Positions 5,203-40,364 of a stretch of 64,000 nt of DNA are shown piece after piece. The position numbers were made by a program, and so were the translations under genes. How positions within the stretch are numbered: position 1 is the first letter of the stretch; each line of letters begins with the position of its first letter. Source of the stretch: Catenuloplanes atrovinosus (GTDB taxonomy: Bacteria; Actinomycetota; Actinomycetes; Mycobacteriales; Micromonosporaceae). The stretch spans positions 4,175,001-4,239,000 of the forward strand of contig NZ_JAVDYB010000001.1 of assembly GCF_031458235.1 (NCBI RefSeq), given 5' to 3'. The notes under the pieces are model-generated. The model did not search any database. It saw nothing but the letters and a program-made list of their open reading frames with translations, and was not told where the DNA came from.

Positions 5203-6276
5203 TCACAGGTATGCGCACACCTGGACCCGGCTGTGGTCGCCGAGCAGCAGCCGGTGTGCCCGGGGCGTGCGCGGCGCCGGGATGACCTCCACCTCGCGGC
5301 CGATCAGCGACGCCTCGATCCGCCCCACGCCGCGGATCACCGAGCTGCCGAGCACCACGGAGTACTCCAGCTCGCTCTCGATGATCCGGCAGTCCTCCGC
5401 GACCGAGGTGAACGGCCCCACGTAGGAGTTCTCCACCACGGAGCCGGCCCCGATGATCACCGGCCCCACGATGCGGGAGCCGCGCACCACCGCGCCCGGA
5501 CCCACCGTCACCCGGCCGATCAGCTCCGAGGCGTCGTCCACCACGCCGGCGATCTCCGGTTCCAGCCCCTCCAGGACCAGCCGGTTGACCTCCAGGATGT
5601 CGGCGACGTTGCCGGTGTCCTTCCAGTAGCCCTCGGTTATCGTCGTCACCACCGGATGGCCGGCGTGCATCAGCCCGGAGATCGCGTGGCTGATCTCCAG
5701 TTCGCCCCGGGCCGAGGGCGTCAGGCCGGCCACGATCGGGTGCACCGCGGCGGTGAAGAGGAAGACGCCGACCAGCGCCAGATCGCTCTTGGGGTGCCGG
5801 GGCTTCTCCTCCAGCCCGATCAGCCGCCCCTCGACGTCCAGCTCCGCCACCCCGAACGCGCGCGGATCGGCGACCTTGGTCAGCATGATCTGCGCGGCGG
5901 GCCGGTCGGCGCGGAACTGCTCGACCAGCCCGGTGATGCCCCCGATCAGGAAGTTGTCGCCGAGGTACATCACGAAGTCGTCGTCGCCCAGGAACTCGCG
6001 GGCGATGAGCACCGTGTGCGCCAGGCCGAGCGGGGCCGCCTGCGGCAGGTAGGTCACCCGCAGGCCCCAGTCCGACCCGTCGCCGATGGCCCGCCGGACC
6101 TCCTCCGCCGTGTCGCCCACCACGATGCCGACCTCGGTGATGCCGGCCTCGGCGATCGACTCCAGCACGTAGAAGATGACCGGCTTGTTCGCGATCGGGA
6201 TGAGCTGTTTGGCGGAGGTGTGGGTGATCGGCCGCAGCCGGGTCCCCGCACCTCCCGCCGGTATCAGCGCCTTCAC
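5203..6276 (-). CDS. rfbA: Glucose-1-phosphate thymidylyltransferase (long form)
   Basis: A 357-aa nucleotidyltransferase that makes dTDP-glucose, the precursor of the deoxysugars. The N-terminal signature [20 protein letters not shown] and the MYLGDNFL and GYWKDTGNV motifs are present. The C-terminal part (about residue 245 onward) is a left-handed beta-helix with hexapeptide-type repeats, as in the StrD-like long form found in antibiotic clusters. The GTG start overlaps the stop of the last NRPS gene by 4 bp (GTGA), so the gene is translationally coupled to the assembly line. A matching dTDP-glucose 4,6-dehydratase is not in the window and could be supplied by primary metabolism. Confidence 0.93.
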
Positions 6277-23800: not shown

Positions 23801-24024
23801 TCGCCGCTGCGGCGCTGACGGAAGCAGGCGCGCAGCGCGGCGTGCCGGGTCAGCAGCGCCTCCCACGCCGTACGCAGCCGCGCCGCGTCCACCGGCCCGT
23901 CCAGTTCCAGTATCCAGTGTCCGACGTAGACGTCCGGGCCCTGGTCGTCGTAGACGGCGTGGAACAGCAGGCCCTCCTGCAACGGCGACAGCGGCCAGAT
24001 GTCCTCGATCAGCGACTGCGTCAC
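11848..24024 (-). CDS. Glycopeptide NRPS, modules 4-6 (C-A-T-E, C-A-T-E, C-A-T)
   Basis: A 4058-aa NRPS for the central tripeptide. Carrier serines fall at about 987, 2473 and 3985. C domains begin near 1, 1490 and 3000 with intact motifs (HHSIMDG, HHLVLDG, HHISCDG). Epimerisation domains follow T4 and T5 ([10 protein letters not shown] near 1167, [10 protein letters not shown] near 2658), so residues 4 and 5 should be D. Hand-read codes are A4 DIFHLGLLCK and A5 DALHLGLLCK (both 4-hydroxyphenylglycine) and A6 DASTIAAVCK (tyrosine or beta-hydroxytyrosine class). This is the StaC/Tcp11/BpsB-type layout. The GTG at 24024 follows GGGAG and lies 38 bp after the module 3 gene. Confidence 0.96.
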
Positions 24025-24062
24025 GGATATCTCCCTCGTTCTTCGGAAGGCTGGGAAGTGGC

Positions 24063-27000
24063 TCACACGTCCGCGCCGAGCTCGGCCTCGAGTTCGGCGA
24101 TCTCGGCGCGGTCCAGGTCGACGAGGCCGAAGCGCTCCACCGGCGTCCGTGCCGGTTCGTCCGCACCGCCGGCCGGCGGTGCGGACAGGGCCGCGAGGCC
24201 CGCGGGCGTCCGGCGCTCGAACACCTCGCGCGCGCCGAAGCTCATCCCGTCGCGCCGGGCGCGCACCGCGAGCTGCATCGACGTGATCGAGTCGCCGCCC
24301 AGTTCGAAGAAGCTGTCGTCGGCGCCGACCCGATCCAGGCCGAGCACCTCGGCGAAGAGCGCGCACAGCGCCCGTTCCGCCGCGGTGGCCGGCTCCCGGC
24401 CGGAGACCCGCGCGCTGAAGTCGGGGTCGGGCAGCGCGTCCCGGTCCACCTTCCCGTTCGGGGTGACCGGCAGCGCGTCCAGCACCAGCACGGCGGCCGG
24501 CACCATGTAGTCGGGCAGCACCGCGGCGAGCCGTTCGCGCAGCGACTCCGGGTCCGCCTCGCCGTCCGCGGTCACGTAGCCGATCAGCCGGCCGTCCCGG
24601 GCCAGCACCACGGCCTGGTGGACGCCGGGCTGCGCGGCCAGCACCGTCTCGACCTCACCCGGTTCCACCCGGAAACCGCGGATCTTGACCTGCGTGTCGG
24701 CCCGCCCGGCGAACACCAGTTCGCCGTCACCGGTCCAGTACGCCAGGTCACCGCTGCGGTACATCCGCTCGCCCGGGACGAAGGCGTCGGCCACGAACCG
24801 TTCCGCGGTCAGCGCCGCCCGGCCCAGGTAGCCGTGGGCCACGCCGGCGCCGGCGATGTAGAGGTCGCCCACGACGCCCGGCGGGAGCGGGCGGAGGAAG
24901 ACGTCCAGCACGTACATCCGGCGGCCGGGCTGCGGCCCGCCGATCGGCAGGACCGGGCCCAGCCGGTCGCCCGGGTCGATCCGCTTCCGGGTCACGCACA
25001 TGGTGGTCTCGGTCGGGCCGTACGTGTGCCAGAGCAGCAGGTCGGGGCACGCCCGCCGGAGCCGCTCCACCGCGTCCAGCGGCACCACGTCGCCGCCGGT
25101 CGCCACCACGCGCAGCCCCGCGAAGGACTCCGCCGCCTCGTGCGCCAGCGCGCGGAACTGCCCGGCGGTGAAGTTCACCGCGGTGAGCCCGTCCGCCACG
25201 TGCGCGGCGAGCCGCCGCGCGTCCACCACGCCCGGCTCGGCGATCATCACCTGCGCGCCGCGGGCGAGCGGCACCCACACGTCGAACACGGACGCGTCGA
25301 ACGTGTGCGGCGCGTGCATCAACACGGCGTCGCCCGCCCCCACGCCCCAGCCGGGGTCGCCGGCGAACACCGGTACGCCCCCGTGCGGGACCGCCACGCC
25401 CTTCGGCATCCCGGTCGATCCGGACGTGTACATCACGTACGCCAGGTCGTCCGGCCCGATCCCGGCCGGCGGCAGCGCGCTCTCGGCCAGGTCGTCCACG
25501 TCGATCCGCCGATGACCGGCCGGCACCGCGCCCGCGGTCCCCGCCCCGCACAGCACGGCCGTGACCCCGGCGTCGGCCAGCATGAACGCCACCCGGTCCG
25601 CCGGGTAGCCCGGGTCGACCGGCACGAACGCGGCGCCGGCCTTCCACACCGCGAGCCAGGCCGCCGGCACCTCGGCCGAACGCTCCAGCATCACCCCGAC
25701 GCGGTCGCCGCGCCGCACGCCCCGGCCGGCCAGCGTCCGCGCCAGCCGGCCCGACCACGCGTCGAGCTCCGCGTACGACCACGACCGTCCCCCGGCCGTC
25801 ATCGCGGTCGCGCCGGGTGTGCGCGCCGCGTGCCGGCCGAACAGGTGCAGCGCGGTCGGCGCGTCCACGGTCCGCGGCGTCTTGTTCCACCGCTCGACCG
25901 TCAGCGCGCGGCCGGCCTCGCTGAGCGGGTCCAGGCGGCCCACGGCGGCGTCCGGTGCCGCGATCATCCGCTCCAGCACGCGGGTGAACCCGTGCAGCGT
26001 CTCCTCGGCGACGCCCGGGTCGAGCGTCTCCGGCCGGTACTGGACCTCGGTCTCCAGGCGCTCGCCCGGCATGACGCCCAGCGTGATCGCGTACGGCGAC
26101 GCCTGCCGGACCTCCAGCGGGCTCAGCCGCAGCTCGCGCCGGGCGTCCGGCGCCGCGCCCGGGTCGACGTAGTTCTCGAACACCACGATCGTGTCGAAGC
26201 TCGCCGCGCCGAGCTTCTGGATCTCCGGCAGCCCCAGGTGGTGGTGCGCGATCAGCGCGGACTGCCGCCTCTGCAGTTCGGTCAGCGTCTCCAGGACGGT
26301 CCGGTTGCCGTCCAGCCGCACGCGTACCGGCACGGTGTTGATGAACAGGCCCGCGACGCGCTCCACGCCGGGCAGTTCCGCCGGGCGCCCGGCGACCGTG
26401 GCACCGAAGACCACGTCGGTGCGGCGCGCCAGCCGGGCCAGCACCAGCGCCCACGCGCCCTGGATCAGCGTGTTCAGCGTCAGCCCGCGCTCGCGGGCGA
26501 ACCCGGTGAGCGCGGACGTGAACTCCGCGGAGTGGCGGACCACCGCGCGGGCCGGTAGCTCCGGTGCCCGGCCGGGCCGCTCCGGCAGGCCGAGCGCGGA
26601 CCCGTCGGCGCCGGACAGCTCCGCCCGCCACGCCGCCCGGGCGGCCTCCCGGTCCTGCCGTCCCAGCCAGGCCAGATAGTCACGGTACGAGCCGGCCGGC
26701 GGCGGCCCGGCGGCGACGCCCCCGGCCTCGTACACCCGGAGCAGGTCGGCCTCGACGATCGCGCGCGACCAGCCGTCCATCAGCAGGTGGTGGCTGGTGG
26801 TCACCAGGCAGTGCCGCTCCGGGCCGAGCCGGATCAGCGACAGCCGCAGCAGCGGGGGCCTGGCCAGGTCGAACCGCCGGGCCCGCTCCTTCTCCGCGAT
26901 CGTGCTCACCTCGGCCGACGCGTCCTCGGCGGACAGTCCGGACAGGTCGTGCTCGGCCCACGGCAGCTCCACCCGGCGGGGGATCAGCTGCACGGTCTCG

Positions 27001-27239
27001 CCGGACCTGCGCCGGTGGAAGGACGCGCGCAGCGCCGGGTGCCGGTCCAGGACGGCCGCCCAGGACCGGCGGAACCGGTCGGTGTCCAGCGGCCCCTCGA
27101 TCAGCTGCGTCTGCTGGATGAGGTAGATGTCCGGCGCCTCGTCGTCGATCGAGGCGTGGTAGAGCATCCCCTCCTGCATCGGTGACAGCGGCCAGAGCTC
27201 CGCGAGCGCCGATCCGGGGGACGTCGACGGAGTGTTCAC
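24063..27239 (-). CDS. Glycopeptide NRPS, module 3 (C-A-T)
   Basis: A 1058-aa single-module NRPS with C3 (HHLLMDGWS near residue 148), A3 and T3 (Ser984 in LGGDS). There is no E domain, consistent with an L residue at position 3. A stand-alone module 3 gene is the teicoplanin/A47934 arrangement. In vancomycin-type clusters module 3 is fused to modules 1-2. The A3 code reads DAFNAGTMCK, which differs from the usual Dpg code at five positions but shares its GT-x-CK end. Dpg is the likeliest substrate, not a certain one. The start is GTG at 27239, overlapping the stop of the module 1-2 gene by 2 bp within GTGA. An open frame extends further upstream but only shadows that gene. Confidence 0.94.
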
Positions 27240-30200
27240 GATGTCTGGCCTCCATTGAGTTCGGCTGCGAGCGCCTCGAAGCCCTCGATCTCGTCCTGGT
27301 CCAGGTCGAGCAGGTCGAAGTCGGACGCGGTGTGCCCGCCGGCCGACGGGTCCTCCGCGCGCCGGGCCAGCCCGGACAGCACCTCCAGCCACTCGCGGCC
27401 CAGCCGCTCCGCCTCACCGTCGGCCAGCCGCCCGGCCGGCCAGCTCAGTGCCAGCCTGAGCAGCGGACCGTCCGGCCCGTCCTCGAGGACCACGTCCGCG
27501 TCCAGGTCGTGCGGCAGATCCGCGCCCGGGCCGAGCATGCCGCCGACGCCGCCCACCGGCTCCCACTCCCGTGCCTCGGTGACGTGCCGGCCCATGTAGT
27601 TGAAGCCGATCCGCGGCGACGGCAGCGCGGCCAGTTCCGGTCCCGTCTCCGGGTTGAGGAACCGCAGCAGGCCGTAGCCGAGCCCGTCGCCCGGCACCGT
27701 CCGGGACTGCTCCTTGACGGCCTTCAGCAGCCGTTCCGCCGCCGGGCCGCCGGCCGGTACGCCGGTCAGGTCGAGGCCGGCCAGGTCCAGGCGCACCGGG
27801 TGCACGCCGGTGAACCAGCCCACCGTGCGGGACACGTCCAGCCCGCCGACCGGGTGACGGCCGTGGCCCTCCACGTCGACCAGCACCACGTCCCCGCCGC
27901 GCCACCGCGCGACCGCGCCCGCCAGCCCGGCGAGCAGCACCTCGTGCACGCCGCAGAAGAACACCGCGGGTGCCCGCCCGGCCAGCACGGACGCCCGGGC
28001 CGGCGGCAGCACCCAGGAGCGCGAACACACGCCGCCCGCGCCCGGCGCGGGCCCGCCGCCGTGGTGCTCGCCCGCGCCGGCCACGGATCGCCAGTACGGC
28101 AGCTCCGCCACCCGCTCCGCGGAGACCGCGTCCCGCACCAGCGCGTCCGCCCACCGCCGGAACGACACCGGCACCGGGTCCAGCGCGGGTGCGCGGCCGG
28201 CCGCCACCGCCTCGTACGCCTGCCGGACGTCCGGGACCAGCACCCGCCAGGACACGCCGTCGACCGCGAGGTGGTGCGCCACCAGCACCAGCCGCCCCGG
28301 CCGGTCCGGACCGGCGTCGACCAGCACGGCCCGCGTCACCGCGCCCGCCGCCGGGTCCAGCCGGGCCACCGCGGCCCGCGCCGCCTCCTGCGCCACGTCG
28401 TCCGGGTCCGCGGCCGGGCCGGCCACCACCCGGCTCACCGCGCCGGCGACGTCCACCGACCCGGGCGGGCCGGTCAGCAGCCGGCCGGAGTCCACCCGCA
28501 GCCGCAGCATGTCGTGCGTGTCCACCACCGCGGTCAGCGCGGTCACCAGCGTCCGCTCGTCCAGGCCCGGGGGTACGGCGACCACCGTCCACTGCGCGAA
28601 GCCCGCGTCCAGCGCCGCGTCGCCCAGCAGCCGCATCACCGGCGTCCACGCGACCTCGCCCGGGCCGTCGGCCGTGGTGGCGCCGTCCCGGTCCGGCCGC
28701 GGCGCGTGCGCCACGACGCGGGCGAGCCGTTCCGGCGTGCGCGCCTCGAAGACGTCGTGCGCGGCGAACGTCAGCCCCCGGCGCCGGGCGCGGGCCACCA
28801 GTTGCATCGAGGTGATGGAGTCGCCGCCCACGGCGAAGAAGCTGTCGTCCACGCCGACCCGGTCCAGCCGCAGCACCTCGGCGAACAGCTCGCACAGCGC
28901 CCGCTCGACGTCCGTGGCCGGCCGGCGGCCGGTGGTCCCGGCCGCGAAGTCGGGGTCCGGCAGCGCACCGCGGTCGATCTTGCCGTTCGGCGTGGCCGGC
29001 AACGCCTCCAGCGCCACCACCACCGCGGGCACCAGGTGGTGCGGCAGCCGGGAGGCGAGATCGTCGCGGACCGCCCGCGCGTCGACGCCGGCCGGCGAGA
29101 CGTAGCCGATCAGCCGGTCGTCCCGGACGGTCACCGCGGCCTGGGCGACGCCGGGGTACGCGGACAGCGCGGCCTCGATCTCGCCGGGCTCGACCCGGAA
29201 GCCGCGGACCTTGATCTGCTCGTCGGCCCGCCCGGCGAAGACCAACTCGCCGTCGCCGGTCCGGTACGCCAGGTCGCCCGTGCGGTACATCCGCGCGCCG
29301 GGGACGAACGGGTCGGCGACGAACCGCTCCGCGGTCAGCGCGGACCGGCCCAGGTAGCCGCGGGCCAGCCCGATGCCGGTGACGTACAGCTCGCCGGTGA
29401 GCCCCGGCGGCAGCGGCCGGAGGAACGCGTCCAGCACGTAGCACCGGCCGCCCGCGATCGGCGTACCGATCGGGACGATGCCCCGGCCGGAGCTCAGCGG
29501 CGCGCTCATGGTCGCGCACACCGTCGCCTCGGTCGGCCCGTAGGCGTTGACCAGCCGCCGTCCCGCCGCCCAGCGGTCCACCAGGCTGGGCGGGCAGGCC
29601 TCGCCGGCCACCACCACGGTCTCCAGCCGGTCCGGCAGCGCGTCCGCGGTGGCCAGCACCGACGGTGGCACGGTCACGTGGGTGACCTCCCACCGGTCCA
29701 GGGCCTCGGCCAGCGACACCCGCGGCGGCAGGTCCTGCTCCGGCGCCATCACCAGCCGCGCGCCGGACAGCAGCGCCATCAGCACCTCGGACACCATCGC
29801 GTCGAAGCCGAGCGCCGCGAACTGCAGCACCCGGGACGACGGCGACACCGCGAAGCGCGCGATCTGCGCGGCGGCCAGGTTTCCCAGGCCCGCGTGCGGG
29901 ACGACGACGCCCTTCGGGGTGCCGGTCGACCCGGACGTGTAGATGACGTACGCGGCGTCGTCCGGCCGCACCCGCGGCAGCCGGGCCGCCGCGCCCGCGA
30001 TCAGGTCGGTCTCCTCGAGCACCAGCAGCCGATCCGCGAAGTCCGCGGGGACCGCCTCCCGGGTCTTGCCCACGCACACCACCAGCGCGGGGTCCGCCTC
30101 GCCGAGGATCAGCCGGACCCGTTCCTCGGGGTAGGCCGGGTCCACCGGCACGAAGGCGCCGCCGGCCAGCGACACGCCCAGCATGCCGACCACCCACCAC

Positions 30201-33200
30201 GCCGACCTGCCGACCACCACGCCGATCCGGCTCTCCCGCCCGGCCCCGCGCGCGGTCAGCGCCGCGGCCAGGCCGGCCGCGCGGTCCCACAGCTCCCGGT
30301 AGGTCAGTTCGCCGTCGCCGTCCACCACGGCCACGTCCCGCGGCCGGGCCGCCACCGCGCGCCGTACCAGTTCGGGCAGCGAGTCCCCGGCCGCCAGCGC
30401 CGGGACCGGCCGGTTCGCCGGCGCCGTGCCGACGCCGAACGCGCCCACCGATCCGGACGGGTCCGCGGCGAGCGCGCCGAGCGCGTCGGCGAACCACCCG
30501 AGCACCGACTCCGCGACGGTCTCCTCGACCTGCCCGTGCCGGTACGCGAGCTGGATGCGCAGGCGGTCGCCCGGGATGATGCCGAGCGTCAGCGGGTAGT
30601 GCGTGCCCTCGATCGTGCCCAGGTAGGTGAACCGGCCGAAGTCGCGCGGATAGCTCTCGAACACCAGCAGCGAGTCGAACGTGACGCCCGGCCCGGCCGC
30701 CTTCTGGATCTCCGACAGTCCCAGGTGCTGGTGCGGCATCAGGGCCGCCTGGCGCCGTTGCAGGCCGGCGAGCATGTCGACGATCCGCTCGCCGCCGTGC
30801 AGCGGCACCCGGACCGGCACCGTGTTCATCATCAGGCCCGGCATCGACTCGACGTCCGGCAGCTCCGCGGGACGGCTGGCGACCGTGGTGCCGAACACCA
30901 CGTCGGTCCGCCGCGCGAGGCGCGCCAGCACCATCGCCCACACGCCCTGCACCACGGTGTTGAGCGTCAGCCCGTGGTCGCGGGTCAGCTCCAGCAGCGC
31001 GGCGTACCGCTCCGGCGCCAGGAACGCCACCCGGTACTCGTAGCCGGTGCCGGCCGCCGCGCCGCCGATCCGCGCGGGCTCGTCCAGGCCGGCCAGTTCC
31101 GCGCGCCAGGCCTCGCGCGCCGCCTCCCGGTCCTGCCGTTGCAGCCAGGCCAGATAGTCCCGGTACGACGCGGTGCCCGCCCGCTCCGGCAGCCGCCCGC
31201 CGGCCGCGTACGCCTCGGACACCTCGCTCAGGATCACCGACACCGACCAGCCGTCCATCAGCGCGTGGTGGTGCACGACCAGCAGCCGGTGCCGGTCCTC
31301 GCCGAGCCGGGCCAGCACCAGCCGGAACAGCGGCGCCGTGGCCAGGTCGAAGCGCTGCTGCTGTTCCCGCCCGGCCAGCTCCCGCACGGCCGCGTCGGCG
31401 TCCCCGGCGCCGGTCAGGTCCACCTCGCGCCACGGCAGCACGACGTGCTCCGCGACCGCCTGCACCGTCTTCCCGGACGCCAGGCGGTGGAAGCTCAGCC
31501 GCAGCTCCGCGTGCCGGGCGAAGACCGACTCCCAGGCCGCGCGCAGCCGGTCCACGTCCAGCGGCCCGTGCAGCCCCAGAATCCACTGCCCCTGGTAGAT
31601 GTCCGGACCCTCGGCGTCCAGCGTCGACTGGAAGAACAGCCCCTCCTGCAGCGGCGCCAGCGGCCAGACCTCCGCGGCCCCCGGTACGACCGCCGCCAGC
31701 TCCCCCCGGTCCTCCGCGGTGAGCGTGATCAGCGGGCGGTCGGCGGGCCCGTCGGCCGGCGCCGGGCGCGCCACCGCCGCCAGCCGTGCCGGGGTGCCCT
31801 CCTCGAAGACCTGGGACGGCGTCACCAGCAGCCCGGCCCGGGTGGCGCGCGCCGCCAGCCGCATCGCGGCGATGGAGTCACCACCCAGCTCGAACAGGCT
31901 GTCGTCGACCCCGATCCGGTCCCGGCCGAGCACGTCCGCGAAGAGCGCGCACAGCACCCGCTCCGTCTCGGTGCCGGGCTCCCGGCCGGTGGCGCCGGCC
32001 GCGAAGACGGGCGCGGGCAGCGCGGCGCGGTCGACCTTGCCGTTGCCGGTCAGCGGCAGCGCGTCCAGCGCGATCACCGCGGCCGGGACCAGGTGGTCCG
32101 GCAGCACCGCGCCGAGCCGTTCCCGGATGCGGTCCGGGTCCGCGTCCGCCACCACGTAGGCGATCAGGCGCCCGTCGAGCGGCACCACCACGGCCTCGTG
32201 CACGTCCGGCGCGGCGGTCAGCGCGGCCTCGATCTCGCCCGGCTCGACCCGGAACCCGCGGATCTTCACCTGGTCGTCGGCGCGGCCCGCGAACACCAGC
32301 TCGCCGTCCGGCGTGCGGCGCGCCAGGTCGCCGGTGCGGTACATCCGCTCGCCGGCCGCGGACGGGTCCGCCACGAACCGCTCCGCGGTGAGCGCGGACC
32401 GGCCCAGGTAGCCGTCGGCCAGGCCGGCGCCGGACAGGTACAGGTCGCCGGTCACGCCGGGCGGCACCGGCCGCAGCGCCGCGTCCAGCACCTGGGCGCG
32501 GCGGCCCGGCAGCGGGTGGCCGATCGGCAGCACCGGGCCCAGCTCGTCGCCCGGGGCGAGCAGCCGCCAGGTCGCGCACAGCGTCGTCTCGGTCGGGCCG
32601 TACAGGTGCCGGACGCGCGCGCCGGGGTGGGCCGCGCGCACCTTCTCGACCGCGTGCACCGGCACCACGTCGCCGCCGGTCAGCACCTCGCGCAGCCCGG
32701 CGAAGGACTCCGGCGACTCCTCCGCCACCGCGCGGAAGCTGCCCGCGGTCAGGTGCGCGCGGGTCACGCCGGCCGCGACGGCCTCGCGCAGGCGCCGGGC
32801 GTCCACCGGGCCGGGCGCGGCGATCACCACGCGGGCTCCGGACACCAGCGGCACCCAGATCTCGTACAGGGAGGCGTCGAACGCGTACGGCGCGTGCATG
32901 AGGACCGCGTCGCCGGGCTCCACGGCCCAGCCGTCGGCGCCGACCAGCTCCGCGACGCTCCGGTGCGGCACGGCCACGCCCTTCGGCGTGCCGGTCGAGC
33001 CGGAGGTGTACATGACGTACGCCAGGTCGCCGGGCCGGACGGTGAGCGCGGGCGGGTCGCCGGTGCCGTCGTCCGCCACCACGATCGGCGTGATCCCCGT
33101 CGGTACGCGGTCGCGCGTGGCCGCCGAGCACAGCATCAGCGAGGTCCCCGCGTCCGCCGCCATGAACGCCACCCGCGGCGCCGGGTAGCCGGCGTCCACC

Positions 33201-33463
33201 GGTACGTACGCCGCGCCCGCCTTCCAGACGGCGAGCAGCGCCACCAGCAGGTCCGCCGAGCGCTCCAGCATGACCGCGACGCGGTCGCCGCGGCGCACGC
33301 CCCGGCCGGCCAGGCGCGCGGCCAGCCGCCCGGCGAGCCCGTCGAGCTCCCGGTACGTCAGCGTGCGGGCGCCGTCGACCACGGCCACCGCGTCCGGCGT
33401 CCGGTCCGCCCGCACGGCGAGCAGTTCCGGCACCGTCGGCGCGGCCTGCGCTGCGGAATCCAT
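27236..33463 (-). CDS. Glycopeptide NRPS, modules 1-2 (A-T, C-A-T-E)
   Basis: A 2075-aa initiating NRPS without an N-terminal C domain. The order is A1 (about 10-490), T1 (Ser530), C2 (HHALMDGWS near 730), A2, T2 (Ser1549), E2 ([10 protein letters not shown] near 1729) and a C-terminal tail. The A1 code is DAYHLGLLCK (4-hydroxyphenylglycine). The A2 code is DASTVAAVCK, one of the classic tyrosine codes. No E domain follows T1, although residue 1 is D in known glycopeptides. ATG 33463 is preferred over ATG 33469 because GGAGG lies 6 nt before it but abuts the earlier one. It is the first gene of a leftward operon: four NRPS genes followed by rfbA. A candidate StrR-type operator lies about 100 bp upstream. 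Confidence 0.95.
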
Positions 33464-33563
33464 CGTCATCCTCCGTCATCGATCGGCGAGGATTGGCCGG
33501 CCTCGCGGATCGCGGACCACCGAGATCCCCATGATGCTGAACGGGATCGATGTCTACGAGCTG

Positions 33564-33592: not shown

Positions 33593-33662
33593 GCGGCCGT
33601 CATCGCGCTTACCGCGTGCGCCGGCGGCGGTGACCAGCGCCGTCGGGAACGCGGCGGAGACA

Positions 33663-33690
33663 TATCGTCGGCGTATCGAAAACGGGATAC
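33663..33690 (+). promoter_or_regulatory. Candidate VanR operator (11-bp direct repeat), ligase promoter
   Basis: TATCGTCGGCG (33663) is followed directly by TATCGAAAACG (33674), then GGATAC. OmpR-type regulators such as VanR commonly bind direct repeats spaced about one helical turn. Matching copies occur before vanR2 and vanH, with conserved flanks reaching about 30 bp downstream (CAACA, GCTGC). Confidence 0.7.
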
Positions 33691-33725
33691 CTTCTCGCAA
33701 CACCGCGCTGCCTTGAATGGGCCGC

Positions 33726-33860
33726 ATGCTTCACGGCCGGCCCGGCGGCGTGTTCCGTGGCGAGCCCGTGCGAATGACGGCCCCCACCTCCAGCGCCCCC
33801 ACGGCGGCACCCATAATCCATGGATGCGGGCGGGACGAGGCTGTGTCGATCGGCCTCTAG
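33726..33860 (+). pseudogene. vanH 5' remnant upstream of the ligase gene
   Basis: A 44-codon open frame (ATG 33726, TAG 33858-33860) at the position where vanH would sit. Its end, HGCGRDEAVSIGL, matches MYGCGQDEAVLFREL of the intact vanH in this window. At DNA level GGATGCGG-GGACGAGGC-GT is shared (33822-33844). The promoter in front of it is also homologous to the vanH promoter up to the ATG. I read this as what is left of a vanH gene after an internal deletion. It could still be translated as a short leader peptide. Confidence 0.65.
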
Positions 33861-33899
33861 ACCTACACGCTCAATGTCCGAGATTCGAAGGCGAGCAGC

Positions 33900-34943
33900 A
33901 TGAGTAGACTGAAAGTCGGAATTCTGTTCGGGGGCCGCTCCGAGGAACATCCCATCTCCATCAAGTCCGCGCAAGAAGTCGCCAAGAACCTCGATCTCGA
34001 GAAGTACGAGCCGTACTACATCGGGATCACCAAGGACGGCGCGTGGAAGCTCTGCGACGGCCCGAGCCCGGAGTGGGAGAGCGGCACCACCCGCCCGGCC
34101 GTGCTGTCCCCGGACCGCGCCACCGGCGGTCTGCTGATCCTCGAGGACGGCCGGTTCGAGACGCTCCCGCTCGACGTCGTGCTGCCGGTGCTGCACGGCA
34201 AGCAGGGCGAGGACGGCGCGATGCAGGGTCTGATGGAGCTGTCCGGCATCCCGTACGTGGGCTGTGACATCCAGAGCTCCGCGCTGTGCATGGACAAGTC
34301 CCTGGCGTACCTGGTGGTGCGCAGCGCGGGCATCGCCACGCCGAACTTCTGGATCGTCAACTCGGACCAGGACGTGGACCCGGGCCAGCTGACGTACCCG
34401 GTCTTCGTCAAGCCCGCCCGCTCGGGTTCGTCGTTCGGCGTCAGCAAGGTCACCCGCCAGGAGGAGCTGGGCGACGCGCTCAAGACCGCCCGGCAGTACG
34501 ACTCCAAGGTGCTGATCGAGGAGGCGGTCGTCGCCAGCGAGATCGGCTGCGCCGTCATGGGCAACGACGAGGAGCTGTTCACCGGCGAGGTGGACCACAT
34601 CGCGCTGTCCCACGGCTTCTTCCGGATTCACCAGGAGGACCAGCCGGAGGTCCGGTCGGAGAACTCGACGCCGATCGTCCCGGCCGACATCCCGGAGGAG
34701 TCGCGCGCGCTCGTCCAGCAGACCGCGAAGGCGATCTACCGCGCGCTGGGCTGCCGCGGGCTCGCCCGGGTCGACATGTTCCTCAAGGAGGACGGCTCCG
34801 TCGTGCTCAACGAGGTCAACACGCTGCCCGGCCTGACGTCGTACAGCCGCTACCCGCGGATGATGGCCGCCGCGGGCCTGCCGCTGGGCGAGGTCATCGA
34901 CCGGCTGGTGTCGCTGGCGCTGGCCGGACGGGCCGAGGGCTAG
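33900..34943 (+). CDS. vanA: D-alanine-D-lactate ligase (VanA family)
   Basis: A 347-aa ATP-grasp ligase that makes D-Ala-D-Lac, the peptidoglycan precursor ending that glycopeptides cannot bind. It follows VanA almost motif by motif: VGILFGGRSEEHPISIKSA, YIGITKDGAWKLC, HGKQGEDGAMQGL, GCDIQSSALCMDKSL, FVKPARSGSSFGV, FRIHQE (the histidine that favours lactate over alanine), GCRGLARVDMFL and LNEVNTLPG. ATG 33900 follows AAGGCGAG. In other producers it is the middle gene of vanHAX. Here it stands alone, transcribed rightward, with vanH and vanX 3-5 kb away on the other strand. Confidence 0.95.
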   Translation: MSRLKVGILFGGRSEEHPISIKSAQEVAKNLDLEKYEPYYIGITKDGAWKLCDGPSPEWESGTTRPAVLSPDRATGGLLILEDGRFETLPLDVVLPVLHGKQGEDGAMQGLMELSGIPYVGCDIQSSALCMDKSLAYLVVRSAGIATPNFWIVNSDQDVDPGQLTYPVFVKPARSGSSFGVSKVTRQEELGDALKTARQYDSKVLIEEAVVASEIGCAVMGNDEELFTGEVDHIALSHGFFRIHQEDQPEVRSENSTPIVPADIPEESRALVQQTAKAIYRALGCRGLARVDMFLKEDGSVVLNEVNTLPGLTSYSRYPRMMAAAGLPLGEVIDRLVSLALAGRAEG

Positions 34944-34955
34944 GCATCTCGTCGT

Positions 34956-34984
34956 CGCGCGCTGGGGCGATGCTCCAGCGCGCG
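34956..34984. terminator. Hairpin between convergent vanA and vanS
   Basis: CGCGCGCTGG at 34956-34965 pairs with CCAGCGCGCG at 34975-34984 (10-bp stem, 9-nt loop) in the 52-bp gap between two convergent genes. Confidence 0.55.
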
Positions 34985-34995
34985 GATCGAGATCC

Positions 34996-36090
34996 TCACC
35001 GGTCCGGCGGCGCCGCGGGCAGCCGCACGGTGACGCACAGGCCGCCGTCCGCCCGCGGGCTGAGCGCGAGCGTGCCGTCGTGCGCGTGCACGATCGCGTT
35101 GACGATCGCCAGGCCCAGCCCGACGCCGGCGTGGTCCGCGCGGATGCGCTGCTCGGTGCCGCGCTGGAACGGCTCGGTCAGGGTGGCGGTGAGCGCGGGC
35201 GTGAGTTCCTTGCCGGTGTTCTCGACCGTCAGCGTCACGCTTTCCGGCCCGTCGCTCGTCGTCACCCAGACGTAGCCGTGCTCCGGCAGGTTGTGCACGA
35301 CCGCGTTCTGCACCAGGTTCGTGGTGAGCTGGAGCAGCAGCGTGGGCGAGCCGACGGTGTGCGCGATGTCGCCCGCGGTCTCGATGGTCGCGCCGTACTT
35401 CTCCGCCAGCGGCAGCAGCGTCTCCGCGGCCTGCTCCGCGACCAGCGACAGGTCCACCCGCTCCCGGGCGAAGGACCGCTGCTCCGCGCGGCTGAACAGC
35501 AGCAGCGCCTCGGTGAGCGCGATCGCCCGCGCGTTGACCGCGTAGAGCCGGTCGACCACCTCGCCGGTGGCGCTGTTCGGATCCTTGCGCGCCACGTCGA
35601 GCAGCGTCTGCATGATCGCCAGCGGTGTGCGCAGCTCGTGCGAGGCGTTGGCGGCGAATCGCCGGTGCTCCGCGACCAGCGCCTCCAGGCGGTCGAGCAT
35701 CAGGTCGAAGGCGTCGGCCAGCTCGCGGAACTCGTCGCCGCGACCGGGCAGCCGGAGGCGGTGCGAGAGCGAGCCGTCCGCGGCCGTGCGCGCCGCGTCC
35801 GTGATCCGGGTCAGCGGCGCGAGCATCCGGCCGGCCACGATCCAGCCGCCCACCAGCCCGAAGACCAGCAGGAACAGCAGCACCCCGGCGGCTCGCGGCG
35901 CGAACGTGCGCAGCGCTCCGGGCGGCGGGCCGGGCACGTGGCGCAGCAGGAACACCCACACGGCGGTCAGCAGCAGGCCCCCGGCCAGCAGCAGGAACCC
36001 GGCGTAGCTGAGGGTCAGCTTGAGGCGGACGCTCGCCCCGCGGGCTCTATCCAAGATCTCCTCCGCCACGCGCGGCCTCCGGCTGGGCAC
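34996..36090 (-). CDS. vanS: Membrane sensor histidine kinase, VanS-like
   Basis: A 364-aa sensor kinase with two transmembrane segments (about 25-50 and 66-90) enclosing a very short extracytoplasmic loop of roughly 15 residues. Then come HAMP, the phospho-acceptor box FAANASHELRTPLA (His151), and the ATPase boxes N (TNLVQNAVVHN) and G (HAGVGLGLAIVNAIVHAHDG). The short loop is typical of actinomycete VanS, which detects the glycopeptide itself. The GTG at 36090 overlaps vanR by 44 bp; GTG 36070 is an alternative start with a smaller overlap. It forms a vanR-vanS operon and is the only kinase in the window, so both VanR proteins may depend on it. Confidence 0.88.
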   Translation of the reverse strand: MPSRRPRVAEEILDRARGASVRLKLTLSYAGFLLLAGGLLLTAVWVFLLRHVPGPPPGALRTFAPRAAGVLLFLLVFGLVGGWIVAGRMLAPLTRITDAARTAADGSLSHRLRLPGRGDEFRELADAFDLMLDRLEALVAEHRRFAANASHELRTPLAIMQTLLDVARKDPNSATGEVVDRLYAVNARAIALTEALLLFSRAEQRSFARERVDLSLVAEQAAETLLPLAEKYGATIETAGDIAHTVGSPTLLLQLTTNLVQNAVVHNLPEHGYVWVTTSDGPESVTLTVENTGKELTPALTATLTEPFQRGTEQRIRADHAGVGLGLAIVNAIVHAHDGTLALSPRADGGLCVTVRLPAAPPDR

Positions 36091-36742
36091 TGATGCGGTA
36101 CCCTACGCCGGCCACGGTGGCGATGAGCCATGGTTCGCCGAGCCGCTTGCGCAGCGCGGAGACGGTGATCCGCACCGCGTTGGTGAACGGGTCGGCGTTC
36201 TCGTCCCAGGCGCGCTCCAGCAACTCCTTCGCGCTGACCACGCCCCCCTCCGCGGCGACCAGCACCTCCAGCACGGCGAACTGCTTGCGGGTGAGCGGGA
36301 CGTACCGCCCGTCCCGGTGCACCTCGCGGCGGAACGGGTCGAGCCGCAGGCCCGCTATCTCCCGCACCGGCGGCCGGTTGTAGGCGCGCCGGCGGTTGAG
36401 CGCCCGCAATCTGATCACGAGTTCGCGGAATTCAAACGGCTTGGTGACGTAGTCGTCCGCGCCCAGCTCGAATCCGGTCGCCTTGTCGTCGATCCGATCG
36501 GCGGCGGTGAGCATGAGAATGGGAATGCCGCTGCCGGAGGAGACGATTCGCTTGGCGATCTCGTCGCCGGACGGCCCGGGGATGTCGCGGTCCAGGACGG
36601 CGATGTCGTAGGCGTTGATGCTGAGCAGTTCGAGCGCGGTGTCGCCGTCGCCGGCGATGTCGGCCGCGATCGCTTCCAGGCGCAGCCCATCGCGGATCGC
36701 TTCCGCGAGATAGGGCTCGTCCTCGACGATCAACACACGCAC
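36047..36742 (-). CDS. vanR: OmpR-family response regulator VanR (copy 1, partnered with VanS)
   Basis: A 231-aa winged-helix response regulator. The receiver has the acidic pair EDE near residue 8, the phospho-acceptor Asp51 (AVLDRDIPG), and the lysine of YVTKPF near 100. The C-terminal domain has the PFTNAVRITVSALRKRLG recognition helix and ends with the VGYRI wing. The GTG start at 36742 matches the length of the second copy. The stop overlaps vanS, so the pair is co-transcribed. It is about 90 percent identical to the divergent copy 179 bp away. Confidence 0.92.
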   Translation of the reverse strand: MRVLIVEDEPYLAEAIRDGLRLEAIAADIAGDGDTALELLSINAYDIAVLDRDIPGPSGDEIAKRIVSSGSGIPILMLTAADRIDDKATGFELGADDYVTKPFEFRELVIRLRALNRRRAYNRPPVREIAGLRLDPFRREVHRDGRYVPLTRKQFAVLEVLVAAEGGVVSAKELLERAWDENADPFTNAVRITVSALRKRLGEPWLIATVAGVGYRISAQPEAARGGGDLG

Positions 36743-36766
36743 GCTCCGATGCTACGAGTCGGCTCA

Positions 36767-36790
36767 TATCGTCGGCCTATCGAAAACCGC
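36767..36790 (+). promoter_or_regulatory. Candidate VanR operator, vanR2 promoter
   Basis: TATCGTCGGCC (36767) is followed directly by TATCGAAAACC (36778), then GCATAC. It has the same layout as the sites before vanA and vanH. It lies in the divergent region between the two vanR genes and is oriented toward copy 2, which suggests autoregulation. Confidence 0.7.
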
Positions 36791-36920
36791 ATACGTGTCG
36801 ACAACATTACGCTGCGTGAGTGTCAGTGCACCGGAGCGCACGGAAACGCACCGGGGAAAGCCCCACCCCACGGACGGCGTCGAAGGTCGACGATTTGCGC
36901 TGACTCGTACCATTGGGCTC

Positions 36921-37610
36921 ATGCGTGTGCTGGTCGTCGAGGACGAACCCTACCTGGCGGAGGCGATCCGCGATGGGCTGCGTCTGGAGGCGATCGCGGC
37001 CGACATCGCCGGCGACGGCGACACCGCGCTGGAACTACTCAGCGTCAACGCCTACGACATCGCGGTCCTCGACCGGGGCATCCCCGGCCCGGGCCCGTCC
37101 GGTGACGAGATCGCCGAGCGGATCGTCGCCTCGCGCAGCGGCATCCCCATCCTGATGCTCACCGCGGCGGACCGGATCGACGACAAGGCCACCGGGTTCG
37201 AGCTGGGCGCCGACGACTACGTCACCAAGCCGTTCGAGCTGCGCGAGCTGGTACTCCGGCTGCGGGCGCTCAACCGCCGGCGCGCGCACAGCCGGCCGCC
37301 GGTGCGGGAGATAGCGGGCCTGCGGCTCGACTCGTTCCGCCGCGAGGTCTACCGGGACGGGCGGTACGTGGCGCTCACCCGCAAGCAGTTCGCCGTGCTG
37401 GAGGTGCTGGTCGCCAGCGAGGGCGGCGTGATCAGCGCGGAGGAGCTGCTGGAGCGCGCCTGGGACGGCAACGCCGACCCGTTCACCAACGCGGTCCGGA
37501 TCACCGTCTCCGCGCTGCGCAAGCGGCTCGGCGAGCCGCGGATCATCGCGACGATACCGGGCGTCGGCTATCGGATCGACATCGGCCAGGAGGCCGCCGA
37601 CCGCGGCTAG
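36921..37610 (+). CDS. vanR: OmpR-family response regulator, second VanR paralogue (no adjacent kinase)
   Basis: A 229-aa regulator nearly identical to VanR copy 1 (about 90 percent by hand alignment). The phospho-acceptor Asp51 is kept. The following loop reads DRGIPGPGPSGDE, a D-to-G change and a two-residue insertion compared with DRDIPGPSGDE in copy 1. The DNA-binding helix PFTNAVRITVSALRKRLG is unchanged, so both proteins should see the same operator. ATG 36921 is chosen by alignment with copy 1; the longer frame upstream has no family similarity and would run across the candidate operator's promoter. It points toward vanX and ends at a hairpin. It may be a functional orphan or a relic of a duplicated van locus. 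Confidence 0.9.
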   Translation: MRVLVVEDEPYLAEAIRDGLRLEAIAADIAGDGDTALELLSVNAYDIAVLDRGIPGPGPSGDEIAERIVASRSGIPILMLTAADRIDDKATGFELGADDYVTKPFELRELVLRLRALNRRRAHSRPPVREIAGLRLDSFRREVYRDGRYVALTRKQFAVLEVLVASEGGVISAEELLERAWDGNADPFTNAVRITVSALRKRLGEPRIIATIPGVGYRIDIGQEAADRG

Positions 37611-37629
37611 CGGGGGATCTCTCCCCCGC
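37610..37629. terminator. Hairpin between convergent vanR2 and vanX
   Basis: GCGGGGG (37610-37616) pairs with CCCCCGC (37623-37629) around a 6-nt loop, directly at the end of vanR2 and 15 bp before the vanX stop on the other strand. Confidence 0.6.
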
Positions 37630-37643
37630 CGCCGCGTCCCGCC

Positions 37644-38261
37644 TCAGCGCTGATTCGCGATGGGGAAGTCGAAGTACGTGTCGGGGTAGGGCTCGTCCCG
37701 CAGCGTGTAGTGCCACCACTCGCAGTCGTACCGGACGAATCCGCTCTCCTCCATGATGGAGCAGAGGTGTTCCCGGTTCTTCGTCTCGTCCGGCGTGATC
37801 CCCTCCGCGCCGTGGTGCGAGACCGGGTCCATCAGGTCGTAGTCGCCGCCCATCCAGACCACCTCGTTCGTGGCGAGGTCGTAGATGGTCAGGTCGACCG
37901 TGCTGCCGCGGCTGTGGCCGGACTTCGCGGCCACGTACCCCTGCTCGAACATCTGCGGACGGTCGATGTTCGGATAGTGGCGCGGCTTGCGCCGGCCGTC
38001 CTCCGGCTGCTCCGACCAGCGCAGGAAGCAGTCCACCGCGCGCTGCGGCCGGTACCCGTCCCAGAGCAGCAGGCCGAATCCGCGCGACTCGGCCTTCTCC
38101 TGCGCGCGGGCCAGCGCGGCACACAGCGCCTTGGTGCCGACGATCCGATTCACCTCGTACCCGTCCACCGGCTTGCCGGTGAAGTTGTCCCAGGTGGCGT
38201 ACTTGGCGTCCCAGCGAATTCCCGGTACGAGTTCGTCCACGAAGGCGAAGTCGTCATTCAT
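37644..38261 (-). CDS. vanX: D-Ala-D-Ala dipeptidase VanX
   Basis: A 205-aa zinc dipeptidase that destroys D-Ala-D-Ala so that only D-Ala-D-Lac precursors are used. All key VanX residues sit at their canonical numbers: Arg71 (WDGYRPQRAV), His116 and Asp123 (SGHSRGSTVDLT), Glu181 and His184 (CEWWHYTL). The ATG at 38261 follows GGGAGAC. The gene is 45 bp downstream of vanH, so the two form an operon. The ligase that normally lies between vanH and vanX is absent here. Confidence 0.96.
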   Translation of the reverse strand: MNDDFAFVDELVPGIRWDAKYATWDNFTGKPVDGYEVNRIVGTKALCAALARAQEKAESRGFGLLLWDGYRPQRAVDCFLRWSEQPEDGRRKPRHYPNIDRPQMFEQGYVAAKSGHSRGSTVDLTIYDLATNEVVWMGGDYDLMDPVSHHGAEGITPDETKNREHLCSIMEESGFVRYDCEWWHYTLRDEPYPDTYFDFPIANQR

Positions 38262-38306
38262 CGGTCGTCTCCCGGCAGGGTCATCGGCACGATTCCGGCG
38301 CGCAGC

Positions 38307-39350
38307 CTAGCCACGCTGCTCGCCGCTGGCGAAGCTCACACAATTGATCAGGCTGTTCTCGACGGTGTCGCTGAGCGCGTGATCGGTGTAATAGGCCGTG
38401 TGCGGGCTGATCAGCACATTCGGCATTTCCTGCAGCCGCAGCAACGCCTTGCTCTCGATCGGGTTGTTCCGCCGATCGGTGTAAAATATACCCTCTTCGC
38501 CCTCGATGACGTCCAGCGCCGCGCCGCCGAGCCGCCCGCTCTCCAGCGCCGCGAGCAGCGCCTCGGTGTCGATCAGCGGGCCACGCCCGGTATTGATGAT
38601 GAACGCGCCGTCCTTCATCCCCGCGATCCGCTGCGCGTTGATGAGATGGTGCGTGTCCGCGGTGAGCGGCGTGTGCAGCGTGACGATGTCGCTCTCCCGC
38701 AGCAATTCGTCCAGCGGCACGTAGGGGGCGACGGAGACGTCCCGCCGGCTGTCGCAGGCCAGCACGCGGCAGCGGAAGCCGGCCAACCGGTCGATCACGG
38801 CCGAGCCGATCCGGCCGGTGCCGACCACGCCGACGGTCAGGTCGCGCAGCTCCCGCCCGCGCGTGTCGCTCAGCCGGTAGTCATGGGCGTCGGTGCGGCG
38901 AACCATGGCCTTCGCGTGGCGGACGGCCATCAGCATCATCATGAGCGTGAAGTCGGCCACGCTGTCCGGCGAGTACGCGACGTTGCCGACGGAGATGCCG
39001 ACGCTCTTCGCGTACGCCACGTCCAGGTGGTTGTACCCGATGCTGCGCGTCGAGATGTACTCCACACCGGCCCGGCTCAGCGCCAGCAGCGTGTCGTTGG
39101 TGATCCGGGTCTTGTGCCCGACGCTGATGCACCGGTTCCCGGCAGCCAGATCGACGTTGGCCTCGGAGACCGCCGCCTCCGTGATCGTCGGCCGCACGCC
39201 GAAGCGCGGTGCCAGCTCACGGAACAAGACGGCCTCGTCCTGGCCGCATCCGTACATGGTGATCCCCGTCGTCTCGGCGACGGAGGCGGACGACGACGTC
39301 AGCGATCCGGTGCGGGAGGCCGCCGTTGGTGCTGGTTCGCTGTAACCCAT
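38307..39350 (-). CDS. vanH: D-lactate dehydrogenase VanH
   Basis: A 347-aa 2-hydroxyacid dehydrogenase that reduces pyruvate to D-lactate for the VanA-type ligase. Motifs: SVGHKTRI, STRSIGYNHLD, NVAYSPDSVADF, the Rossmann motif VGVVGTGRIGSAVIDRL, NTGRGPLIDT, ALDVIEGEEGIF and the catalytic-His segment LISPHTAYYT. The first 31 residues before MYGCGQDEAV are an N-terminal extension relative to enterococcal VanH. ATG 39350 is kept because the candidate VanR operator and promoter lie just upstream. It is the first gene of the vanH-vanX operon. Confidence 0.95.
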   Translation of the reverse strand: MGYSEPAPTAASRTGSLTSSSASVAETTGITMYGCGQDEAVLFRELAPRFGVRPTITEAAVSEANVDLAAGNRCISVGHKTRITNDTLLALSRAGVEYISTRSIGYNHLDVAYAKSVGISVGNVAYSPDSVADFTLMMMLMAVRHAKAMVRRTDAHDYRLSDTRGRELRDLTVGVVGTGRIGSAVIDRLAGFRCRVLACDSRRDVSVAPYVPLDELLRESDIVTLHTPLTADTHHLINAQRIAGMKDGAFIINTGRGPLIDTEALLAALESGRLGGAALDVIEGEEGIFYTDRRNNPIESKALLRLQEMPNVLISPHTAYYTDHALSDTVENSLINCVSFASGEQRG

Positions 39351-39389
39351 GGCGGACAGTCAAGGGAGCACGGTGTTGCCAGCACGTAT

Positions 39390-39413
39390 GAGGTTTTTGA
39401 TATGCCCACGATA
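39390..39413 (-). promoter_or_regulatory. Candidate VanR operator, vanHX promoter
   Basis: On the minus strand TATCGTGGGCA (from 39413) is followed by TATCAAAAACC (from 39402), then TCATAC. This is the third copy of the 11-bp direct repeat. It begins 63 bp before the vanH ATG, the expected activation distance. The downstream flank CAACACCG is also shared with the vanA promoter. Confidence 0.72.
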
Positions 39414-39419
39414 TGTGCG

Positions 39420-40364
39420 TCAGCGTTCCCGCCACATGGCGCGCAGCGACTCCGCCAGGCCGTGCTCCGGGGTCCAGCCCAGCACGTCCGCGGCGCGCCG
39501 GACGTCCGCCTGGATCCAGTCGCCGCCCACGCTGCGCACCGCGCTGCCGTCGTCGTAGAGCGCGCCCTCGGGCAGCCCGGCCGCCTCGGTCAGCGCGCGG
39601 ATCACGTCCGCGATCGGCACCGCGGCGCCGCTGCCGATGTTGAACGCCTGACCGGTGGCGGTGGAGGCGAGCGCACGGCTCACCGCCGCGGCCACGTCCC
39701 GCACGTCCACGAAGTCGCGGCGCGCGTCGGCCACGCCCATGCCGACGCGCTCGCCGCCGGCCGCGGCGCGGGCCCGCGCCAGCAGCTTGCCCGGCAGGCC
39801 GGCCGGGGAGGGATGCGGCCCGGTCACGTTCGTCAGCCGGAGCACGACGCCGTCGATCCGGCCGGACCGGGCCGCGTCCAGCACCGCGGTGGAGCCGCCG
39901 AGCTTGCTGCGGGCGTAGTCGCCGGCCGGGCGCGGCGCGGCGTCCTCGTGCACGGATACGCCGGGCGGCACCGGGCCGTACTCGTGGATGGTGCCGAGGT
40001 GGACCAGCCGCGGGCGCCAGGGCACCGCGGCGATCGCGTCGACCAGCCGGCGCACCGCGCGCACGTTCGTCTCGATCAGGTGCTCCGCCGGGTGGTCCCA
40101 GCCGTCCGAGGTGTTGGCGCCGTCCGTGGCGTTGACCACCGCGCCGATCCGCTCGTCGCACAGCAGCGCGGTCAGCCGTGGCACGTCCGCGGCGGCGACG
40201 TCCATCCGCAGGAACCGGCCGGCGTCCGGCACCGCGGTCGCGTGCCGCGCCACGGCCAGCACGGTCCACCCGTCCCGGCGCAGCCGCGCGCAGACGTGCC
40301 GGCCGATCGAGCCGGTGCCGCCCAGCACCACCACGCGCCGGCCGGTGCCGAGTTCGCGATCCAT
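39420..40364 (-). CDS. evaE: NDP-sugar 4-ketoreductase, evaE-like
   Basis: A 314-aa extended short-chain dehydrogenase. It has the NAD(P) loop VVLGGTGSIGRHV near the N-terminus, the YARSK active-site motif near residue 160, and VLRLTNVTGPHP. EvaE-type enzymes reduce C-4 in the last step of TDP-epivancosamine or eremosamine synthesis. ATG 40364 is chosen; GTG 40370 is also possible. It is separated from the other sugar genes by the NRPS and van blocks and lies 70 bp upstream of vanH on the same strand. It is the last gene on the right that clearly belongs to the antibiotic cluster. Confidence 0.85.
   Translation of the reverse strand: MDRELGTGRRVVVLGGTGSIGRHVCARLRRDGWTVLAVARHATAVPDAGRFLRMDVAAADVPRLTALLCDERIGAVVNATDGANTSDGWDHPAEHLIETNVRAVRRLVDAIAAVPWRPRLVHLGTIHEYGPVPPGVSVHEDAAPRPAGDYARSKLGGSTAVLDAARSGRIDGVVLRLTNVTGPHPSPAGLPGKLLARARAAAGGERVGMGVADARRDFVDVRDVAAAVSRALASTATGQAFNIGSGAAVPIADVIRALTEAAGLPEGALYDDGSAVRSVGGDWIQADVRRAADVLGWTPEHGLAESLRAMWRER

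Follow-up and report, generated by a model that had tools for sequence, protein, structure and literature searches.

In the 64,000-nucleotide stretch of the Catenuloplanes atrovinosus genome analysed here (contig NZ_JAVDYB010000001.1, positions 4,175,001 to 4,239,000; called the window, with positions counted from its first letter), the glycopeptide resistance genes vanHAX are found in two copies of opposite orientation that have lost complementary parts, one retaining the ligase and the other vanH and vanX. The left copy carries vanA (33900 to 34943, forward strand), encoding D-alanine--(R)-lactate ligase. The right copy carries vanH (38307 to 39350, reverse strand), encoding D-lactate dehydrogenase, and vanX (37644 to 38261, reverse strand), encoding D-Ala-D-Ala dipeptidase. 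As vanA is on the opposite strand and 2.7 kb from vanX, the three genes do not form one operon. This agrees with a preliminary description of the same DNA, which had vanH and vanX running leftward without a ligase between them and the ligase running rightward alone, with every element where that description placed it. The best explanation, to which a probability of about 0.87 is given, is that the self-resistance locus of a glycopeptide cluster derives from two inverted van units that lost the interiors of different genes and whose halves act together.

The ligase scores 610.8 bits with NCBIfam NF000206 (equivalog cut-off 550) and VanX 401.3 bits with NF033115 (cut-off 320). VanH is full length and is 79% identical to the vanH product of the intact vanHAX of genome G073; it reaches 529.5 bits with the general model NF000492, just below the cut-off of 540, and 573.9 bits with NF000112, below the cut-off of 625. 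Between vanA and vanX lie vanS (34996 to 36090, reverse strand), encoding a sensor kinase, and two response regulator genes, vanR1 (36047 to 36742, reverse strand) and vanR2 (36921 to 37610, forward strand). Their best-scoring models are VanS-O for the kinase (456.6 bits, below the allele-level cut-off of 720) and VanR-O for the regulators (450.6 and 436.6 bits, both below the allele-level cut-off of 505). The window genome (G000) is a single contig of 8.9 Mb, and searches of it found one close match each for VanH (next matches partial, 30-44%) and the VanA-type ligase (next match 36%), and a single vanX; for the three genes taken together, the matches that follow are partial, with identities of 30-49%. 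A second vanHAX was not found in G000 by these genome searches.

The left unit keeps both ends of a vanH gene in front of vanA. The preliminary description had noted a vanH-like promoter before the ligase, and a profile built from 80 vanH promoters of named relatives identifies one at 33656 to 33728 (forward strand) with 58.6 bits (E 8e-16), against 63.5 bits for the promoter of the intact right vanH (39348 to 39416, reverse strand), which precedes vanH, the remnant described below and vanX. About 60 bp preceding the left stub match the right promoter, and aligning 33640-33900 with the reverse complement of 39200-39420 gives a promoter score of 60 (1000 shuffles: mean 18.4, maximum 31). The resemblance extends beyond the operator into the coding part: from the start codon onward, with the promoter removed, 23 bases align with a score of 31, reached by 1 of 2000 shuffles. 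The vanH 5' stub (33726 to 33860, forward strand) is a 44-codon frame ending HGCGRDEAVSIGL, in which the preliminary description had matched HGCGRDEAV to YGCGQDEAV of the intact vanH. A profile of the YGCGxDEAV block, built from 42 places in named relatives, places the stub second among the 127,930 positions of the window with a score of 33.0, behind only intact vanH (54.1), while the next position scores 1.3. The first 30 or so codons of the stub frame, ahead of this block, have no match of their own.

The end of vanH resumes directly before vanA, in a frame different from that of the 5' stub. This 3' stub (33872 to 33907, forward strand) consists of 12 codons, QCPRFEGEQHE and a stop, and the vanH-end profile scores 13.9 at 33873, second in the window after the intact vanH end (18.5) and ahead of the next site (8.1); this profile and the corresponding vanA-end profile were each built from 70 junctions. 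Among the 71 named junctions in which both the vanH and vanA matches could be followed, the vanH stop lies inside vanA in 66 (one of these has no vanH stop until far inside vanA), with an identical 8-nt overlap in 56, and FE occurs among the last ten vanH residues in 65. The left stub ends in RFEGEQHE where relatives have FESGNQHG or similar, and its stop, ending at 33907, keeps exactly the 8-nt overlap with the vanA start at 33900. The Shine-Dalgarno-like stretch of vanA sits inside the 3' stub, with purine-rich AAGGCGAG ahead of vanA. Because promoter, vanH start and last vanH codons all remain before vanA, the left vanH must have lost its interior, estimated by inspection as codons 42 to 336 or so, about 295 codons.

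The right unit shows the reciprocal condition. Between vanH and vanX lies an in-frame mini-vanA of 18 codons, VARLRAGIVPMTLPGDDR, composed of the two ends of vanA (38258 to 38314, reverse strand). It overlaps the vanH stop by 8 nt (38307, 38314) and the vanX start by ATGA, and a purine-rich, ribosome-binding-like GGGAGA precedes vanX. The vanA-start profile scores 16.0 over the first nine codons, at 38314, second in the window (vanA itself 39.9, next 1.0), and the vanA-end profile scores 16.9 over the last ten, again at rank 2. The mini-vanA ends in LPGDDR, where vanA of G073, the nearest intact relative, has LPGDI at the same place. By inspection about 327 codons of vanA are estimated to have been lost here, in frame. 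Neither the mini-vanA nor the vanH 3' end before vanA appeared in the preliminary description, which also lacked the inverted second vanR and the third VanR-type box treated below.

These remnants bear on the possibility that vanA simply left a vanHAX operon with its own promoter, by transposition or inversion, no second unit being involved. Such a move would accord with the finding of one intact copy each of vanH, vanA and vanX, and it is contradicted by the scars, since a move would leave no pieces on both sides, while here both ends of vanH stand before vanA, both ends of vanA stand between vanH and vanX, and vanR occurs twice. With each side keeping both ends of the gene that it lacks, a simple move was rejected as very improbable.

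The centre of the locus mirrors its flanks. The genes vanR1 and vanR2 stand back to back within an inverted repeat whose arms comprise 533 nt (85% identical) and 170 nt (91%); 595 of 702 aligned DNA columns are identical, as are 87% of protein residues. Identities at the three codon positions (88.6/96.1/76.3%) suggest that both genes have been under purifying selection. Inverted orientation is seen also in the vanH promoter, the vanH start and the vanH-vanA junction, each present on both sides. As both deleted genes left their ends, vanR occurs twice in inverted orientation and the intact genes are divided between the units, there is strong support for a pair of inverted van units that underwent complementary deletions, with complementary loss accompanied by remnants seen for vanH and vanA.

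Three matches to the VanR-type box pattern (at most 3 mismatches) occur in the whole genome, all of them at the van locus, and a reversed control pattern gave none. Two lie in the left and right vanH-type promoters, and the third (36764 to 36817, forward strand; 46.3 bits) lies 22 bp from vanR1 and points to vanR2. The box is presumably bound by VanR, and since all three boxes are here, the VanR regulon is likely to comprise the left vanA unit, vanR2 and the right vanH-vanX unit. Among vanR loci of named relatives, 48 of 49 have a box about 19-25 bp upstream that points away from vanR, three of the boxes being weak (10-16 bits). The vanR2 leader, with a partly decayed half-box (36880 to 36916, reverse strand), mirrors the vanR1 leader with a local alignment score of 38, reached by none of 2000 shuffles (maximum 22). 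A decayed divergent box before vanR2 was considered and set aside, the box profile by itself giving p 0.06 and the leader alignment alone speaking for it; before vanR2 of genome G072 the profile detected no divergent box (p 0.34). Further boxes were observed in two related clusters. In G047 (L134), boxes at 5987-6057, 12112-12180, 13569-13636 and 14853-14928 precede genes assigned by Pfam as VanY-type, lone vanH, Mur-ligase and PhyH-type dioxygenase, respectively, and in G073 (L139) a box at 8128-8197 precedes a Mur-ligase gene (Pfam), hinting at a wider VanR regulon in the G047 and G073 clusters.

The van locus most probably provides self-resistance within a biosynthetic cluster for a glycopeptide of the teicoplanin/vancomycin type. 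To its left lie large leftward frames of nonribosomal peptide synthetase (NRPS) type at 27236-33469, 24063-27392, 11848-24366 and 6273-11837, which we take to be the NRPS genes of such a cluster from their order and size, as in teicoplanin-type clusters. The frame at 6273-11837, the terminal synthetase, contains condensation, adenylation, carrier and thioesterase domains, and its last 600 residues, which we take to be the X-TE region, have matches at E <= 1e-90 in 4 of 354 genomes of the family, namely G000, G047, G072 and G073. Over this region the matches in the latter three are 80-83% identical.

Comparison with relatives shows how far the window departs from the usual organisation. The genes and the VanR-type promoter are those of vanHAX-vanRS in glycopeptide producers and other actinomycetes, and the window differs in that vanA stands apart from vanH and vanX, both deleted genes persist as stubs and vanR is found twice. 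In keeping with the gene order that had been described as normal, vanA follows directly behind vanH in all 80 named vanH loci compared, which are the best 80 of 194 relatives, with a gap between matches of -4 to +24 bp, and a plan in which vanH, vanA and vanX run in one direction to face vanS and vanR is frequent among them. Among the relatives compared, none was seen to carry a separate ligase. Within the family, vanH at E <= 1e-80 was found at 42 places in 39 of the 354 genomes; all 42 were examined, counting vanA as present behind vanH with a gap of up to 450 bp. Four other genomes of the genus of the window have no vanH at this threshold. Genomes G121, with a partial vanH match, and G119, with a partial vanA match, were scored as having vanA; in G119 (L155, 8436-9405) the vanA match is in two pieces with a gap, and in G121 (L156, 4128-4799) the vanH match is partial, so that G119 vanA and G121 vanH may be interrupted.

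A vanH without vanA behind it occurs at four places in three genomes: the window, a lone vanH of G047 and both vanH genes of the G072 cluster. All three genomes belong to the four with the terminal synthetase, and the remaining 35 genomes with vanH show no such case (hypergeometric p 4.4e-4, for a grouping made post hoc and with the kinship of the four uncorrected). Loss of vanA is not general to producers, since named members of Amycolatopsis, a genus with glycopeptide producers, keep vanH, vanA and vanX together, A. orientalis (L059) among them. It is doubtful, at the level of the family, that selection in glycopeptide clusters uncouples the ligase, giving it its own VanR promoter and setting the supply of D-Ala-D-Lac apart from the removal of D-Ala-D-Ala, so that the mini-vanA would be a coupling cistron from vanH to vanX and the loss of vanA in three of the four genomes a trend and not chance decay.

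The G072 van locus resembles the window in lying near the same NRPS, from which a methyltransferase gene separates it, and in possessing a block in which vanR is met by the oppositely directed vanX and vanH, without vanA or vanS. A second vanH lies close to the NRPS and faces out from it (L136, 8319-9440); this copy is 63% identical to the window vanH, sits on a long branch and, lacking vanA, runs into vanR. Unlike the window, G072 has no ligase that could be found in the stretch, and its vanH is fused straight to vanX with no mini-vanA. Next come a VanY-type gene and a vanS directly preceded by a 26-codon piece of vanR (L136, 12652-12729), which adjoins the VanY-type gene; a complete vanR lies elsewhere in the locus. 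A complete vanHAX is on another G072 contig. G047, like the window, has a vanH without vanA; it follows a Mur-ligase gene, the position that vanHAX occupies in G073. This lone vanH has no vanX behind it and ends, as judged by eye, at an apparent vanX start; a complete vanHAX lies 4.4 kb away. A complete vanHAX is thus also present in both G047 and G072, while none was found in G000. G073 has the nearest vanH of the family and the same NRPS set as the window but, unlike it, possesses an ordinary, intact arrangement of Mur ligase, vanH, vanA and vanX facing vanS and vanR.

The two inverted units are certain in form, their origin less so. The preliminary description had proposed an inverted duplication of the locus followed by complementary deletions. 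Inverted units with complementary deletions are upheld by the stubs of vanH and vanA, the two vanR genes and the single vanH, vanX and ligase; a single inverted duplication would be the simplest origin and is possible, the trees being in conflict. In the full DNA tree vanR1 and vanR2 are sisters (support 100/95), joined next by vanR of G072 (98/88). The alternative that two van units of different descent were joined in opposite orientation, or that a second was acquired, and then lost complementary parts is given somewhat less than even odds. It draws on the vanR protein tree (Shimodaira-Hasegawa-like approximate likelihood ratio test, SH-aLRT, 87) and the tree of first and second codon positions (99/85), in both of which vanR2 groups with vanR of G072 and not with vanR1. 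At the protein level vanR1 and vanR2 are each nearer to an Amycolatopsis vanR (93% and 91%) than to each other. Similarly, the window vanX is sister to vanX of the second vanHAX of G047 (99/96), yet the window vanH falls with those of G073, the lone G047 copy and the two G072 cluster copies in one glycopeptide-cluster clade (99/95); the left vanA ends in LAGRAEG, unlike the LPGDDR tail of the mini-vanA; and both G047 and G072 possess a second, complete vanHAX. Against different descent stand the sister position of the two vanR genes in full DNA, which shared base composition or gene conversion could mimic, and the approximately unbiased (AU) test, by which a vanR1-vanR2 clade is not rejected (p 0.21) and a clade of vanR1, vanR2 and the G072 vanR has a slightly better fit than the unconstrained tree. 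The mirrored vanR leaders point the same way, though they are expected of any two vanR loci.

The remaining trees allow several pairings. The window vanH was not rejected as partner of Hb of G072 (AU p 0.27), nor the window vanX as partner of that of G073 (p 0.18) or of the G072 cluster copy (p 0.52). The left vanA is weakly placed, and pairing with vanA of G047, G073 or G072 is not rejected (AU p 0.46, 0.41 and 0.39), while the window vanS groups with those of G072 and G047 (SH-aLRT 97). Bootstrap values were unsettled in three trees (vanR full DNA, vanR first and second codon positions, and vanH). A full inverted duplication common to the window and G072 was also considered, being hinted at by the shared vanR, vanX and vanH block and by the NRPS-near vanH. 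The two cluster vanH genes of G072 are sisters to each other (98/89), so that a shared duplication would need gene conversion or separate duplications, and the idea was not retained.

Several observations weigh against the derivation from two inverted units acting together, or against parts of it. The history of the locus is mosaic, the gene trees following no one simple history. The vanA-3'-end match of the mini-vanA is weak by itself, at 16.9 bits compared with 14.2 at an unrelated site. Behind the left vanA no vanX remnant was detected (165 of 1000 shuffles reach the score), and behind vanR2 there is neither a vanS nor a detectable remnant of one (931 of 1000 shuffles); as no remnant was found, the losses of vanX from the left unit and of vanS from the right are read from the common plan alone. 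Finally, vanR2 carries, beside the predicted phospho-acceptor, VLDRGIPGPGPSGDE, with a two-residue insertion and a change of D to G; the insertion is absent from 55 of 58 other vanR sequences compared, the other three not matching the motif search, and vanR2 may work abnormally.

On the reading of two inverted units with complementary losses, the ancestral state would have been a pair of units, each with the common gene plan (vanH-vanA-vanX facing vanS-vanR), in opposite orientation with their vanR ends together. A different gene would then have been hollowed out in each. In the left unit the vanH interior would have gone, together with any recognisable vanX, so that promoter, vanH stub and vanA remain; the right unit would have lost the vanA interior in frame, as well as vanS, leaving promoter, vanH, the 18-codon mini-vanA and vanX. 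The ends may have been kept as carriers of what the next gene needs, that is, the promoter at the 5' end and the ribosome-binding stretch with the start overlap at the 3' end. As the ends carry the promoter and ribosome-binding-like stretches, this would explain why the deletions stopped at them. In the present locus VanS would activate VanR1, VanR2 or both, and both promoters would be switched on together. From the right transcript VanH would make D-lactate and VanX would remove D-Ala-D-Ala, and from the left one VanA would make D-Ala-D-Lac, both halves thus being needed. Since both promoters have the box, vanH, vanA and vanX are each of full length and the searches revealed no backup operon, we infer that the halves act together under VanRS and that resistance probably depends on both.

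The preliminary description had also suggested that the vanH remnant serves as a short translated leader. Retention of the 44-codon stub as a leader controlling vanA expression, by attenuation or coupling, would be in line with a stub frame that opens at the old vanH start behind a conserved promoter, and with another short frame that runs from 33820 and ends in an ATGA overlap with vanA. The stub frame nevertheless stops 39 nt before vanA and differs in frame from the vanH 3' stub, and the same stub turned up in no related sequence. Folding of the leader is less stable than that of most shuffles (z +1.60; 195 of 200 at least as stable), which lends an attenuator role no support. The suggestion is left unsupported, and a leader function is considered improbable.

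The vanHAX genes are generally handled as a single unit. Searches that look for an intact vanHAX would overlook this arrangement. The locus shows an operon broken without gene loss, by opposite units with internal deletions sparing promoters, ribosome-binding stretches and start-stop overlaps. Within a single genome, where the scars can still be read, it allows complementary loss to be tested as a route to operon splitting. It also provides a naturally occurring example in which D-Ala-D-Lac ligase dosage may be independent of VanH and VanX dosage. Passages in PMC8698665 and PMC7325946 describe the usual organisation, and one in PMC8698665 gives the genome of its producer a complete vanHAXRS set. 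Among the literature matches listed, no title or abstract opening mentions vanA separate from vanH-vanX with stubs; an arrangement of the G072 type may be drawn in PMC8698665. A departure of another kind was observed in L061, L069, L085, L086 and L097, four of the five from Kribbella, where vanH and vanA occur but vanX gave no match exceeding the score threshold.

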